A DNA stretch of 64,000 nucleotides, from positions 37,723 to 101,722 of the forward strand of contig NZ_JABZFL010000074.1 in assembly GCF_014237455.1 (NCBI RefSeq). Direction: 5' to 3'. Below, piece by piece: positions 31,112-61,879 of this stretch (within the stretch, counting starts at the first letter, position 1; every line of letters starts with the position of its first letter). Origin of the DNA: Desulfobacula sp. (GTDB taxonomy: Bacteria; Desulfobacterota; Desulfobacteria; Desulfobacterales; Desulfobacteraceae). Below the pieces are notes generated by a model, which had not been told where the DNA came from, searched no databases, and saw nothing but the letters and a program-made list of their open reading frames with translations. The position numbers were made by a program, and so were the translations under genes.

Positions 31112-31867
31112 ATGCTTGAAAATCCATATGTTTTTAAAATCCAGAGATATTCCATTCATGATGGCCCTGGAATAAGAACCACGCTTTTTTTTCAAGGCTG
31201 CCCTTTGTCCTGTCACTGGTGCCATAACCCCGAAAGCCAGAAAAAGTCCTTGCAAACAGATGCAGAAGATATGGACAGGGTCGCTGCCGATTTAATGGAA
31301 GAAATTGAAAGAGATCTTATTTTCTATGATGAGTCAGGTGGCGGGGTAACTTTTTCAGGCGGGGAGCCGTTGTGTCAACCGAAATTATTATTCAAACTAT
31401 TGGATCTGTGCCGAAAGAAAGAGATTCATACCTGCCTCGACACTTCAGGATATACTGACGTTAAGATTCTTTTGAAGGCGGCAGAAAAAGTGGATTTGAT
31501 TCTTTATGATATTAAATTGATAGATGAGACGGCGCATCAAGAATATACCGGGGAAAGCGGCTGCCTTGTACTGGATAATTTAAAACAATTATCAAACCAA
31601 AGGGCCAATATCAGGTTACGGTTTCCCCTCATCCCGCAGATGACGGATACAGACGAAAACATTGGCAGGATTATGGTTTTTTTAAAAGAAAATACAATTT
31701 ACCGGGATATTCATATCCTGCCGCTTCATAAGGCAGGTGAGGCGAAATATAATTTTTTGAATATGAAAAATCATATGGAAGACATACAACCGCCATCCAA
31801 AGAAAGGGTTTTAAACGTAAAAGAACAATTTGAATCCAGGGGATTCGGTGTGGCAATCGGGGGATAA
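31112..31867 (+). CDS. glycyl-radical enzyme activating protein (radical SAM, short form)
   Basis: SIHDGPGIRTTLFFQGCPLSCHWCHNPES; GGGVTFSGGEPL; adjacent to the GRE gene. Confidence 0.93.
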   Translation: MLENPYVFKIQRYSIHDGPGIRTTLFFQGCPLSCHWCHNPESQKKSLQTDAEDMDRVAADLMEEIERDLIFYDESGGGVTFSGGEPLCQPKLLFKLLDLCRKKEIHTCLDTSGYTDVKILLKAAEKVDLILYDIKLIDETAHQEYTGESGCLVLDNLKQLSNQRANIRLRFPLIPQMTDTDENIGRIMVFLKENTIYRDIHILPLHKAGEAKYNFLNMKNHMEDIQPPSKERVLNVKEQFESRGFGVAIGG

Positions 31868-31869
31868 AA

Positions 31870-34230
31870 ATGAATTCAAGAATAAAAAGCTTAAGAAAAA
31901 AAACAAGACAAAAAGAGGTGACCGTCTCCCATGAAAGGGCTGAGCTTGTTACCGCTTTTTTCAAGACCTATGTCAGTATGGATGAATCTATTCCGGTTCA
32001 AAGAGCATTGTGTCTGAAACATGTGCTTGAAAATAAAAAAATATTTATCGATGACAATGAACTGATTGTCGGAGAACGGGGACCCGAACCCAAAGCGGTT
32101 CCGACATATCCTGAAATCTGCCTGCATTCTTTGGAAGATCTTGAGATTTTAAACTCAAGACCCAAGGTGCCCTATAAGGTTTCAGAGGAAACAAAAGCAA
32201 TCTATAAAGAAAAGATTATCCCGTTCTGGAAAGGTAAGACCATAAGGGAAAAGATTTTTGCTGCCATGGAGGATCAGTGGATTGATTCTTTTAATGCCGG
32301 AATTTTTACCGAGTTTCAGGAGCAGCGGTCTCCGGGGCATACTGCCGGCGGTGAGTTGATTTATCAAAAAGGATTCAATGATCTGAAAACAGATATTGGG
32401 CACTGTCTTGGGAACATTAATTTTTTTGAAGATAAAGAGGCCCTTGAAAAGCAGGAAATCTTAAAATCTTTTGATATTGCAGCAGATGCCCTGATCGCCT
32501 TTGCCGAACGGCATGCAGATGAACTGGAACACATGGCAAAAGATGAAACAGATTCCAAACGAAAAGCAGAGCTTGAGAATATGGCCTGTGTCTGCCGGAG
32601 AGTGCCTGCCAGAAAACCTGAAACTTTTCACGAGGCCTTGCAGTATTACTGGTTCCTTCATGTCGGGGTCATCACGGAACTCAATCCCTGGGATGCCTAC
32701 AACCCGGGAAGATTTGATCAGAACCTTTATCCTTTTTATAAAAAGGATATTGAGAGCGGGATATTGACAAGGGAAGAAGCAAAGGAAATGCTTTGTTGTT
32801 TCTGGATAAAATTTCATAACCATCCGGCCCCTCCAAAGGTGGGCGTAACTGCCAGGGAAAGTAATACTTATGTGGATTTTTGTCTGATCAACCTTGGCGG
32901 AGTCACAAAGGATAATCAGGATGGCGTTAATGAATTGACCTACCTCACCCTTGATGTGATTGAAGAGATGAGACTCCTGCAGCCAAGCTCCATGATCCAG
33001 GTATCACGGAAAAATCCGGATCGGTTTATCAGGCGGGCCTTGAAAATTATTGCCACGGGATTTGGTCAACCATCAGTGTTTAATACCGATGCTATTATCC
33101 AGGAGATGATTCTTCATGGCAAATCTGTGGAAGATGCGAGAAAAGCTGGTGCCTCGGGCTGCGTAGAAGCAGGGGTCTTTGGAAAGGAATGCTATATTCT
33201 GACAGGCTATTTTAATCTTCCCAAAATTTTTGAAATCACCCTTTACAATGGCTGGGATCCAAGGACAGAAAAGCAGATCGGTCTTAAAACAGGAGACCCC
33301 ATAAGTTTTGAAATATTTGACAATTTTTTTGATGCCTATAAAAAGCAATTGGAGCATTTTGTTAATATCAAAATCAGGGGTAACAATATAATTGAACAGA
33401 TTAACGCAAGGTACATGCCTGTTCCCTTACTTTCCCTTGTTACCGAAGATTGTATAAAAAATGCAAAAGATTATAACCAGGGGGGTGCCAGATACAATAC
33501 CTCCTATATCCAGGGTGTGGGCATGGGAACTATTACAGATTGTTTTTCATCACTGAAATATAATGTATATGATAAGCAGCATATCTCCATGAAAACCATG
33601 ATGGAGGCGCTGGAAAAAGACTTTGAGGGAAACGATATCCTTATTCACAGGCTGGATCAAACGCCCAAGTATGGCAATGATGATGATTATGCAGATGAGA
33701 TATTAAAGACAGTGTTTAAGGTTTTCCATGGATTGGTAACCAAAAGACCCAATGCTAAGGGAGGGGTTTTTCGGATTAATCTTTTATCCACTACCTGTCA
33801 TGTTTACTTTGGTGAAATCACCGGTGCGTTGCCCGATGGGAGGAAAAAGGGTGTGCCGGTTTCCGAAGGAATATCTCCGGTACAGGGGGCTGACCGGTGT
33901 GGCCCCACAGCCGTATTGAAATCTGTAGCCAAAATCGATCATTTAAAGACAGGTGGGACACTCTTAAATCAAAAATTTTTGCCCGATCTTTTTAAAGAGA
34001 AAAAGGAACTTCAGGCTCTGGTGCATTTAATCCGCTCCTATTTTAAAATGGATGGCCACCATGTACAGTTTAACGTGGTGGCAGAAGAGACGTTAAGGGA
34101 TGCCCAGAAGCATCCGGAAAACCATCAAGATCTGATCGTCAGAGTGGCGGGATATTCCGATTATTTTGTGGATCTTACTTTGGCTTTGCAGGAAGAGATT
34201 ATACTTAGAACAGCCCATACCAATTTTTAA
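31870..34230 (+). CDS. hypD: glycyl-radical enzyme, probable trans-4-hydroxy-L-proline dehydratase
   Basis: GCVEAGVFGKECYILTGYFNLPKIFEI active site (C431, E433, Y447) and RVAGYSDYF glycyl loop (G761). Confidence 0.8.
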   Translation: MNSRIKSLRKKTRQKEVTVSHERAELVTAFFKTYVSMDESIPVQRALCLKHVLENKKIFIDDNELIVGERGPEPKAVPTYPEICLHSLEDLEILNSRPKVPYKVSEETKAIYKEKIIPFWKGKTIREKIFAAMEDQWIDSFNAGIFTEFQEQRSPGHTAGGELIYQKGFNDLKTDIGHCLGNINFFEDKEALEKQEILKSFDIAADALIAFAERHADELEHMAKDETDSKRKAELENMACVCRRVPARKPETFHEALQYYWFLHVGVITELNPWDAYNPGRFDQNLYPFYKKDIESGILTREEAKEMLCCFWIKFHNHPAPPKVGVTARESNTYVDFCLINLGGVTKDNQDGVNELTYLTLDVIEEMRLLQPSSMIQVSRKNPDRFIRRALKIIATGFGQPSVFNTDAIIQEMILHGKSVEDARKAGASGCVEAGVFGKECYILTGYFNLPKIFEITLYNGWDPRTEKQIGLKTGDPISFEIFDNFFDAYKKQLEHFVNIKIRGNNIIEQINARYMPVPLLSLVTEDCIKNAKDYNQGGARYNTSYIQGVGMGTITDCFSSLKYNVYDKQHISMKTMMEALEKDFEGNDILIHRLDQTPKYGNDDDYADEILKTVFKVFHGLVTKRPNAKGGVFRINLLSTTCHVYFGEITGALPDGRKKGVPVSEGISPVQGADRCGPTAVLKSVAKIDHLKTGGTLLNQKFLPDLFKEKKELQALVHLIRSYFKMDGHHVQFNVVAEETLRDAQKHPENHQDLIVRVAGYSDYFVDLTLALQEEIILRTAHTNF

Positions 34231-53198: not shown

Positions 53199-53381
53199 TC
53201 ACAACCTGTTTACAGGAACATTGGCCAGTTTTTCCTCAAGGTATTCATCCATGAGAATTTTATATTTATCTTCGGGGTAATTTGTTGTGCAGGCCCTGCA
53301 GCAAAGATAGACTTTTTTTCAGGTTCGTTTAATGTAAAGCTTTCCGCCGCAGTTTAAACAGTTTCCTTTTATGGTGTTCAA
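53199..53381 (-). CDS. dual-CXXC small selenoprotein candidate (in-frame TGA at 53319-53321)
   Basis: TTG start after AAGGA: MNTIKGNCLNCGGKLYIKRT(U)KKVYLCCRACTTNYPEDKYKILMDEYLEEKLANVPVNRL*; hairpin 13 nt after TGA. Confidence 0.75.
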
Positions 53382-53481
53382 AATTTTTATCCTTTATTTT
53401 TTAATATTCTGCAGATAAAATACTGCCAAATATAATAAAAGTCAAAAATAATAAGTACCAGAAAACAGGAGTCTTGAATAT

Positions 53482-57333: not shown

Positions 57334-57409
57334 TGGTTTATTTTATGATCACCATCGGAGGGACAAAATAATGGCAAAGAGCAGTGTGAAAGGAACCGAA
57401 GGAAAGCAT

Positions 57410-58754
57410 ATGAAAAGTTTAAAAAAATTATTGATCATTATTCCTGTCATCTGCGGGATTGTTCTCTTCGTTTGGATGAAAAGCACCAAACAGCCGCCCG
57501 CCCGTCTTGACCACAAAGAGCGGGTTCAGACCGTCCGGGTGATTTCTCTGGAAAAAACCCGGGTTGTGCCCAGGGCCATCAGCTATGGATATGTTGAGGC
57601 AGAACGTACCTGGGAAGCTATTTCCGAGGTCAGTGGTAAAATCGTTTACATGAATAAAAATTTGAGAAAAGGGTATTTTATTCGCAAAGGTGAGCTTTTG
57701 TTCAAAATTGATACCACTCCATACGGGCTTGCCGAAACCCGGGGAGTGGCAGAGCTTATGAATGTTGATGCCCGGCTCAAGGAGCTTGCCCAGTCCCAAA
57801 AAAATACCCAGCGTGTCCTGTCCATTGAAAAAAAATCCCTGACCAGTGCCGCTCAGGAGCTTAAGCGCAAGCGGGAATTGTTTGACAAAGGCTATATCTC
57901 TGCTTCCGATCTGGAAAGAGAAGAAAGAATTTTTTTGACCCATCAGACCACAGTGAATAATCTTCAAAATACCTTAGCCCTGATCCCGTCACAGAAAAAA
58001 GCCCTTTTGGCTCAGAAAAAATCAGGGGAATCCACAGTGACTGAACGGCGCCTGGATGTGGCCAAAACAGAAATCTATGCCCCCTTTAACTGCCGGCTGT
58101 CTGTAGTGAATATTGAACTTCACCAGTATGCGACTGCCGGAAGCGTGCTGGTTAAAGCAGAAAGCATTGAGAGTGCCGAGATTTCGATACAGTTGGCACC
58201 CAAAAATTTTTTAAATCTCATGCCCAGGGAAGATGGTCCCATGATTCCGGAAGTACCAAATATGGAGATTCTTCGCCAGGCAATTGGAATTACTGCCAAG
58301 GTGATACTTCCCTTAGATGAGGTGAATCAAATTGAATGGGATGGTCGGTTTTCCCGGACCAGTGAGTCCATGGATCTTAAGACAGGGGCTATTACAATCT
58401 ATATCACAGTGGATAAATATGCTTCCTGGAAAGCGGCCACCTCTGCTTACCAATATGTATGTGGAGGTGGAACTGCGGGGGAAAGCGGTTCCGGATCGGT
58501 TTGTAATCCCCAGAAGTTCCGTGCATGAAGAAAAAATTTATATCTGTTCCCCGGAAAACCGGCTTGTAATTAAGCCGGTAAAAGTTGAATTCCAGGTGGA
58601 AAATTTGGCCGTGCTATCCACAGGGCTTGAACAAGGTGAGACTCTGGTGTTAACCGATCTTGTGCCGGCCGTGGAGGGGATGCTGCTGAAACCCTTTCAG
58701 GACAGCGACATTGCAGAACAACTGAAGCGTCAGGCCACTGGGGAGGCATTGTAG
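57410..58754 (+). pseudogene. RND efflux membrane fusion protein, frameshifted near 58427
   Basis: ORF 57371-58528 and ORF 58332-58754 together give one HlyD-like protein; frame change between DKYA and PGKRPPLLTNMYVEVELRG. Confidence 0.8.
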
Positions 58755-58755
58755 C

Positions 58756-61700
58756 ATGAATTCATTTAAAAAGATGATTTCGTTCATGTGTGCCCATCCC
58801 ACGGCTGCAAATCTTCTCATGCTACTGTTTATCACCCTGGGTCTGATTTCGGTTACCGGCCTGAAACGGGAAACCTTTCCCGATTTTTCTGTCAATGCCG
58901 TTGAAGTCACGGTGACGTATCCTGGGGCCACTGCCGAAGATATAGAATCATCTGTGTGTCGGCGTATCGAAGACGTCATTGACAGTGTGACCAATATCGC
59001 CGAGGTCCGGAGTACGGCCATGGAAAACAGGGCTTTGGTTGTAGTGGAAATGGTGGATGAAGGTAATATCATCGAGTTTTTCAATGACATCAAAACCGAG
59101 GTGGAAGCCATTAATGATTTCCCGGCCCAGGTGGAGGATGTGATCGTCAAACGGATCAACAGGACCGACCCGGTAGTGTCTGTAGCAGTAACAGGACCCA
59201 TGAGTCCAGTGCATTTAAAGTTTTACTGCGAGGATCTCAAAGACAGGCTCAAGGCTCTGGGTATGGTTTCCCAAGTGGAAATATTGGGGTTTTCCGATCA
59301 TGAATTTTTAATTGAGATTCCGTTTTACACTATGATGCGCCTGGGCCTTTCCGTGTCTGATATCGAAGGGGCAGTGGGGGTTCAAAATCTGGATTTGCCA
59401 GTCGGAAGCCTGGAAACAAGGGATTCGGACATTCTGATCCGGTTTTCCGAAGAAAGAAAAACCCTATATGCCTTGGAGGACCTCATTGTGATATCCGGGG
59501 AAACGGGCGCAGAAATCCAGCTGGGGGATATTGCCAAAATTTCGGACCGATTCACGGAGGATGAAGACAAAATCCTGTTTGACGGAAAACGGGCCGGGCT
59601 GCTCCAGATCAGTAAAACCAAGTCCGAGGATGCCTTGAGAGTTCTGGATGCGGTGACAGCCTTTCTGGCAGAGGAGCAGACAAGAGCCCCTTCAGGCATC
59701 TCCTTTACCATTACCCAGAATGTGTCCAAGGTGGTTCGGGACCGGCTTCAAATGCTGGCCGTGAACGGGATACAGGGGCTGGTCCTGGTGTTTTTTGCCA
59801 TGCTGCTGTTTTTCCCTTTTTCCTTTTCCTTCTGGGTGGCCATGGGCCTGCCGGTTACTTTTCTACTGACTTTTTTCTTTATGAAACATCTGGGATTGTC
59901 TCTGAACATGCTGTCCATGGTCGGTCTTTTGATCGGGCTTGGCCTGCTCATGGATGATGCCATTGTGATTGCCGAAAATATTGCCGCCCACCTTGAAAAG
60001 GGAAAAGATTCTTTCAAGGCTGTTGTAGACGGCATATCCGAAGTAGCAGCGGGCGTGTTTTCTTCATTTCTAACCACTTTTTTTATTTTTGGGGCACTGG
60101 CCTTGAGCATGAAAGGGGATATCGGAAAAGTACTTTACGTGATTCCCGTGATTCTGATCCTGACCCTTTCCGTGAGTCTGGTGGAAGCCTTTTTCATTCT
60201 TCCCAATCATCTGTCCCATTCTCTGGCCGGGCATTCCTCAGGCAGACGTAAGGGCAGGTTCCGCCAGAAAACTGAGGCAGGCCTTGCCTGGATGCGGGAA
60301 CAGATCCTTGGCCGGTTTGTGGATGCGGCTGTCAATTTCAGGTATTTATTTGTCGGGCTGGTTATCTTTGCCTTTATTGCCTCCATCTCCATGATCGCCG
60401 GTGGGTATTTGAAAATTCGGGCTTTCCCTGAAACGGAAGGAGAAGTGCTCCAGGCCCGGATTCTATTCCCCCAGGGAACTCCCCTGGAAAGAACCGAAGA
60501 CTACGTGGACAAAATTGTAAAGGCGGCAGACAAAATGAATACTGCCTTATCTCCTTTACAGCCGGGTAAAGCGAACCTGGTGGAACATATCAGTGTGCTT
60601 TACAACACCAATGCAGATGCCGGAGAAAGCGGTCCCCATGTGGCCACGGTTTCCCTGGACCTTTTAAACGCTGAAAACAGATCCGGGTCCATGGATGATA
60701 TCATCAATAAATGGAGATCCCTGGCAGGGGAATATCCCTGATGCCATTGCCTATAAAGAGCCCACCATGGGCCCGGGCGGGCTTCCCATTGAAATCCGGC
60801 TTAAGGGGAAAAACCTTGATGATTTAAAATCAGCCTCCACAAAGCTGATCAACTGGCTATACACCTATGAGGGAGTGGCAGACCTTTATGATGATTTGCG
60901 GCCGGGCAAGCCGGAAATTCTGGTCAAACTTAAAAAAGGGGCAACAGCTAGGGGATTTGATGCCGGAAGTGTTTCAAAACAGCTGAGAGCCGCCTTTTAT
61001 GGCAGTACTGCCAGCGAGATAATTGTCAGGGATGAATCCTATGAGGTGAATCTCAGGATGGCTGCTTCTGACAGGCGCAGCATTTTTGATCTTGAAAATT
61101 TTTATCTCATGAACGGCAAAGGAGGGCGGATTCCTTTGAATACCGTGGCATCCATCACCTACAGCAGGGGATATACCGGAATCAGACGGGTGGATGGTCA
61201 ACGGACCGTCACGGTTACCGGGGATGTGGATACCCGGGTTGCCAATGCAGCGGATATTATCACCGATATAAAAGTCAGGTTTATGCCGGAATTGAAAAAA
61301 CAATTTCCCGATATTTCCATCGGACTGGAAGGTCAGGCCAAAGAAACGAAGACTTCCATGGGGGGTATGCTAAAGGCCCTTGGCATAGGTATTTTTGGTG
61401 TGTTCTGTCTTTTGAGTTTTCAGTTTAGAGCCTATCGGGAACCCTTTGTGATTATGGTGACCATTCCCTTTGCACTCATCGGTGTTGTCTGGGGTCATCT
61501 GCTTATGGGACTTGACCTCTCCATGCCCAGTATCCTGGGATTTGTTTCCCTGGCCGGCATTGTGGTGAATGACTCCATTCTTCTGGTCGGTTTTGTCAGG
61601 CAGCACACGGCAATGGGTATGGCCGTGGACGATGCCGGAAAACTGGCTTCAAGGGAGCGGTTTCGGGCAGTTCTGCTGACCACGGTAACCACTATCGCAG

Positions 61701-61879
61701 GCCTTTTGCCCCTTCTGGCAGAAAAATCCATGCAGGCCCAGGTCCTGATTCCCCTGGCCTGCTCCATTGTGTTTGGGCTGATGATGTCCACCCTGCTGGT
61801 TCTGGTGGTGGTACCCTGTCTTTATACCATCCTGTCGGATTTCAACCTGGTGAGGATGGACACTGACAGACCCGGTTAA
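58756..61879 (+). pseudogene. RND-family efflux transporter, frameshifted near 60732
   Basis: ORF 58756-60741 plus ORF 60695-61879; frame change at GEY/IPDAIAYKEPTMGPGG. Confidence 0.85.

Follow-up and report, generated by a model that had tools for sequence, protein, structure and literature searches.

A 2026 review of prokaryotic selenoproteomes places two selenoprotein families, OS_HP3 and DW, under the NCBIfam model NF041197 (PMC13188914). As summarised in that review, OS_HP3 is a hypothetical protein of RxU type from the Olavius algarvensis Delta1 symbiont, taken from a 2007 study (PMC13188914, ref. 60), and the hypothetical protein DW is of GxU type and dates from 2025 (PMC13188914, ref. 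65). With Cys in place of its in-frame TGA, the protein encoded at 53199..53381 on the minus strand of the window (the whole 64,000-nucleotide stretch of Desulfobacula sp. DNA analysed here) scored 71.4 bits against NF041197 (E 5e-20, profile positions 1-53 of 53), well over the curated cut-off of 40 bits for this model, which is titled 'dual CXXC motif small (seleno)protein'. An earlier note on this DNA had pointed to a PGAP family with Cys or Sec between two CXXC motifs, and NF041197 is that family. The same note spoke of an overlooked selenoprotein gene; the selenoprotein assignment held up, whereas 'overlooked' applies at most to the locus and not to the family, which is already in the literature and in NCBIfam. 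None of the three outcomes that the note had named as refuting (a genome that lacks sel genes, homologs with neither Cys nor Sec at the site, a hairpin that is not conserved) was observed. Judged by its sequence, the window gene is almost certainly a genuine selenoprotein gene of the NF041197 / OS_HP3 family. It is an additional member of a family that has been described and named. The 60-residue protein had no match in Pfam above that database's cut-offs.

The window protein is of RxU type (R-T-U) and shares with OS_HP3 / NF041197 the spacing CXXC-x9-U-x6-CXXC, the RxU motif, the length and a TGA in the Sec column. It differs in having CRAC where CRSC is usual, in a SECIS loop that reads GGC where GTC is usual, in a TTG start and in the lack of a truA neighbour. 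With DW it shares the CXXC-U-CXXC layout, but DW has a GxU motif and another C-terminus and falls in a separate clade (100/99 support). The TGA-bearing loci of this GxU ('DW') clade (L113-L119, L121-L123, L124, which is the 15361 copy, and L126) cluster apart from the RxU forms. Both types co-occur in several genomes of the phylum, and NF041197 covers both. No second, DW-type copy was found in the window's genome, which gave one match only. Five columns, CXXC-(U/C)-CXXC, were invariant among 58 aligned sequences (C6, C9, U/C19, C26 and C29 in construct numbering).

The minus strand from 53381 to 53199 encodes the 60-residue product MNTIKGNCLNCGGKLYIKRT-U-KKVYLCCRACTTNYPEDKYKILMDEYLEEKLANVPVNRL. 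Translation would begin at a TTG codon (53381-53379), read the TGA at codon 21 (53319..53321) as selenocysteine and end at a terminal TGA (53201-53199). The first CXXC (CLNC, codons at 53349..53360) is invariant in aligned family members, and the codons of the second (CRAC, 53289..53300) supply the same bases as the core stem and loop of the SECIS element described below. The frame with its in-frame TGA lies where the earlier note had placed it. That note had also pointed to an RBS-like AAGGA, and we found a Shine-Dalgarno sequence, AAAGGA (53390..53395, minus strand), 8 nt upstream of the TTG and kept in the genus. The start context, TAAAGGATAA..TTG, is conserved within the genus, and other relatives have ATG or GTG in the same start column. 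Standard ORF calling stops at the in-frame TGA of 53199-53381. A scan of the window by codon usage gave no other convincing TGA read-through gene.

Homologs over the cut-off were present in 40 of 58 close genomes, each with exactly one TGA (40/40), and in 88 of 395 genomes across the phylum, some with a TGA and some without. The named close relatives came from GTDB genomes of Desulfobacula, Desulfotignum, Desulfospira, Desulfamplus and other Desulfobacterales; a cultured relative, Desulfospira joergensenii (L145), has the gene as well. When the fetched loci were translated, the homologs without a TGA proved to have Cys in the same column. Among 93 distinct sequences the Sec column was TGA in 67, TGC/TGT in 26 and TAA/TAG in none, while 38 of 62 of these genes have TAA/TAG as their terminal stop. 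The alignment of Cys to the TGA, proposed earlier as a check, is borne out by 26 Cys forms. Compared with relatives from the genus and the family, the region after the TGA gave dN of 0.07-0.28 against dS of 0.45-1.99. As dN is far below dS, the sequence comparisons indicate that the part downstream of the TGA is coding and under purifying selection as protein. In a tree of 93 rows the GxU forms made up one supported clade. In the RxU group the Sec/Cys states need few changes, and at least one Sec/Cys exchange is allowed; the tree alignment has 49 columns, hence little is resolved beyond the GxU clade and this exchange. A near-identical copy in another MAG (L158, genome GH13) is frameshifted by the loss of one base right behind the TGA, which probably reflects a mistake in assembly or decay of that copy.

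We analysed the RNA segment that follows the TGA in several ways. The earlier note had described a hairpin 13 nt past the TGA, and a bacterial SECIS-type hairpin, TTTG-C-TGCAG-GGC-CTGCA-CAA-CAAA, is present there (53281..53305, minus strand). It has a bulged pyrimidine, a core stem TGCAG/CTGCA (53300-53288) and an apical loop GGC whose first base is the conserved G. Its single-sequence minimum free energy was not lower than that of synonymous shuffles (53305-53281, p = 0.65), nor could TGA and Cys forms be told apart by minimum free energy against such shuffles, as they could by counts of pairs and by codon bias. Over seven stem pairs in 76 TGA forms, 456 of 532 cells were paired, against 369 +/- 8 in a synonymous null (maximum 394 in 1000 draws), so that comparative pairing is far above chance. 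The Cys forms were at their null (96 vs 93 pairs). When the partners were slid, pairing dropped from 87% to 30-48%. The pairs at the base of the stem alternate between G-C, U-A and C-G in compensatory fashion: 23 double changes were counted there, where shuffles gave 7.3 +/- 2.1. The loop starts with G in 75 of the 76 TGA forms. Measured per codon against local usage, synonymous bias is strongest at Arg+8 (1.78 bits) and weaker at +6, +7, +9, +10 and +11. In 49 of 54 TGA forms the Arg+8 codon is AGG, which makes up 15% of the remaining Arg codons in these genes (Fisher p 2e-26, nominal since the sequences are related). These comparisons show selection on the post-TGA hairpin at the level of RNA, and only in TGA forms.

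A family covariance model trained on 55 rows, the window sequence among them, and run on the whole window picked out the SECIS site at 41 bits (E = 2.8e-9; next match 0.81). Rfam gave no meaningful match for the hairpin. The consensus element reads GC-UGCAGGUCCUGC-GGC and is very similar to that of E. coli fdhF. The loop of the window copy is GGC (53293-53295, minus strand, an Ala codon), where most relatives have GTC (a Ser codon); the TGA forms L107 and L134 share the GGC loop, which so appears to be tolerated. The E. coli fdhF SECIS shares the GCAGGUC..UGCA apical stem-loop and the pyrimidine before the UGCA stem. The window element differs from it in its loop, which is GGC and is set off from the UGA by some 4 nt more. 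The 50-nt fdhF stretch used for this comparison was confirmed in the fdhF of E. coli genomes.

The genome also carries the selenocysteine machinery, whose presence had been proposed as a check: all four of selA, selB, selC and selD were found, with tRNA-Sec (selC) at 76.5 bits, above its cut-off, selA at 597 bits, selD at 371 bits and selB at E 2.1e-103. The selD gene (L070, G000:C37:10289-11212) is a selenoprotein gene too, with a single TGA in frame. Across the phylum SelB was over the cut-off in 353 of 395 genomes. Selection on the hairpin accompanies UGA and is absent from Cys forms. The sequence evidence thus supports the reading of this UGA as selenocysteine by the SelB and tRNA-Sec of this genome, aided by the hairpin that lies over the codons of the second CXXC.

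Two other accounts of the TGA were weighed against Sec insertion. An ordinary or premature stop, with a peptide of 20 residues or a pseudogene as the outcome, would agree with the behaviour of standard ORF calling, which ends there, and with the unexceptional energy of the single-sequence hairpin. We give this account next to no credence, as the TGA is kept in every over-cut-off homolog of the close genomes, the column is never TAA or TAG though these end many of the same genes, the downstream frame is under purifying selection and other lineages have Cys at the same column. The conservation past the TGA across genomes refutes it. The gene may instead be real while its UGA is decoded through near-cognate suppression or under an alternative code, with no Sec inserted; the case for translation is made here from sequence, which leaves room for such decoding. 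It is extremely improbable in a genome with complete Sec machinery, where selection on the hairpin is seen in TGA forms and is absent from Cys forms, and where TGA serves as the normal terminal stop of this gene and of its homologs.

The structure of the product was approached through profile searches and modelling. Weak profile matches in Pfam and PDB were to zinc ribbons, for example RNA polymerase I subunit RPA12, and to small zinc proteins. With four invariant CXXC cysteines and weak matches that point the same way, the sequence suggests that the product is likely a zinc ribbon with the four cysteines as metal ligands. An AlphaFold2 model (pLDDT 72, pTM 0.48) has strands at 12-17 and 22-26 followed by two helices, and places the Sec (construct residue 19), with modest confidence, in the hairpin turn away from the CXXC knuckles. 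A Foldseek search of PDB with this model gave no significant match. We envisage a 60-residue zinc ribbon in which the four CXXC cysteines would hold a metal, followed by two short helices and a conserved N/D-R-L/I end. The Sec would sit in the beta-hairpin turn as an exposed selenol active in redox chemistry or thiol exchange, for which some lineages would use Cys; this chemistry is suggested by the replacement of Sec by Cys. We regard a redox role of the Sec as an even prospect. The fuller picture of a zinc ribbon with an exposed selenol at the hairpin tip, e.g. a selenol-based redox switch or carrier, is put forward tentatively and is rather doubtful as a whole.

The genes around the locus differ between lineages. 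No universal gene neighbour was found: truA, pyrE, the gene for a phosphoribosyltransferase, that for a probable transporter and the rest are each confined to single lineages. In the genus of the window the gene is divergent from the phosphoribosyltransferase gene, and what is presumably argG lies nearby. In one lineage of Cys forms the gene follows what is presumably pyrE. In many Desulfobacterales truA, encoding a tRNA pseudouridine synthase, comes next; at 14 loci (L077, L078, L079, L081, L084, L086, L088, L108, L130, L153, L159 and L161-L163) it lies directly downstream on the same strand, often with touching ends. The truA adjacency is a lineage-specific arrangement.

The main rival to a redox role is one in which the Sec is itself a ligand of Zn or another metal, in a zinc ribbon that handles metal or regulates and is not a redox catalyst. 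The four invariant CXXC cysteines and the resemblance to zinc ribbons are what this proposal draws on; against it, the modest-confidence model has the Sec in the turn between strands 12-17 and 22-26, and a structural Zn site with Sec among its ligands would be out of the ordinary. We consider it unlikely, though to be taken seriously. The protein could also work with tRNA or RNA modification, as zinc ribbons often bind nucleic acids and truA begins right after the gene on the same strand at the 14 loci; with other neighbours elsewhere (the phosphoribosyltransferase gene, pyrE upstream of one Cys group, and others) this is improbable.

Other features of the window were noted in passing. A glycyl radical enzyme and its activase are encoded at 31112-34230 on the plus strand; by NCBIfam NF043068 the enzyme is a trans-4-hydroxy-L-proline dehydratase (1233 bits, cut-off 1100). 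Oligopeptide-type ABC transporter genes come after this pair, and the dehydratase and transporter genes suggest a sulfate reducer that uses hydroxyproline or peptides. At 58756-61879 on the plus strand a gene for an RND efflux pump appears split into two overlapping ORFs, 58756-60741 and 60695-61879, probably by a frameshift or an assembly error, and the adaptor ORF at 57371-58528 has an odd ending as well.

The locus adds to the family a small gene that standard ORF calling truncates and that is very probably a true selenoprotein gene. The stem of the SECIS is made of the codons of the second CXXC, and the family offers a clean data set for this protein/RNA overlap, in which RNA-level selection for AGG at Arg+8 is confined to genes with UGA in the Sec column. 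With its Sec/Cys split and CXXC-U-CXXC layout, the family lends itself to tests of its function. If the proposed zinc ribbon with an exposed selenol is true, its architecture would differ from the thioredoxin-fold and molybdopterin ones usual among selenoproteins, with an RNA signal written in the codons of the protein's own second zinc knuckle.
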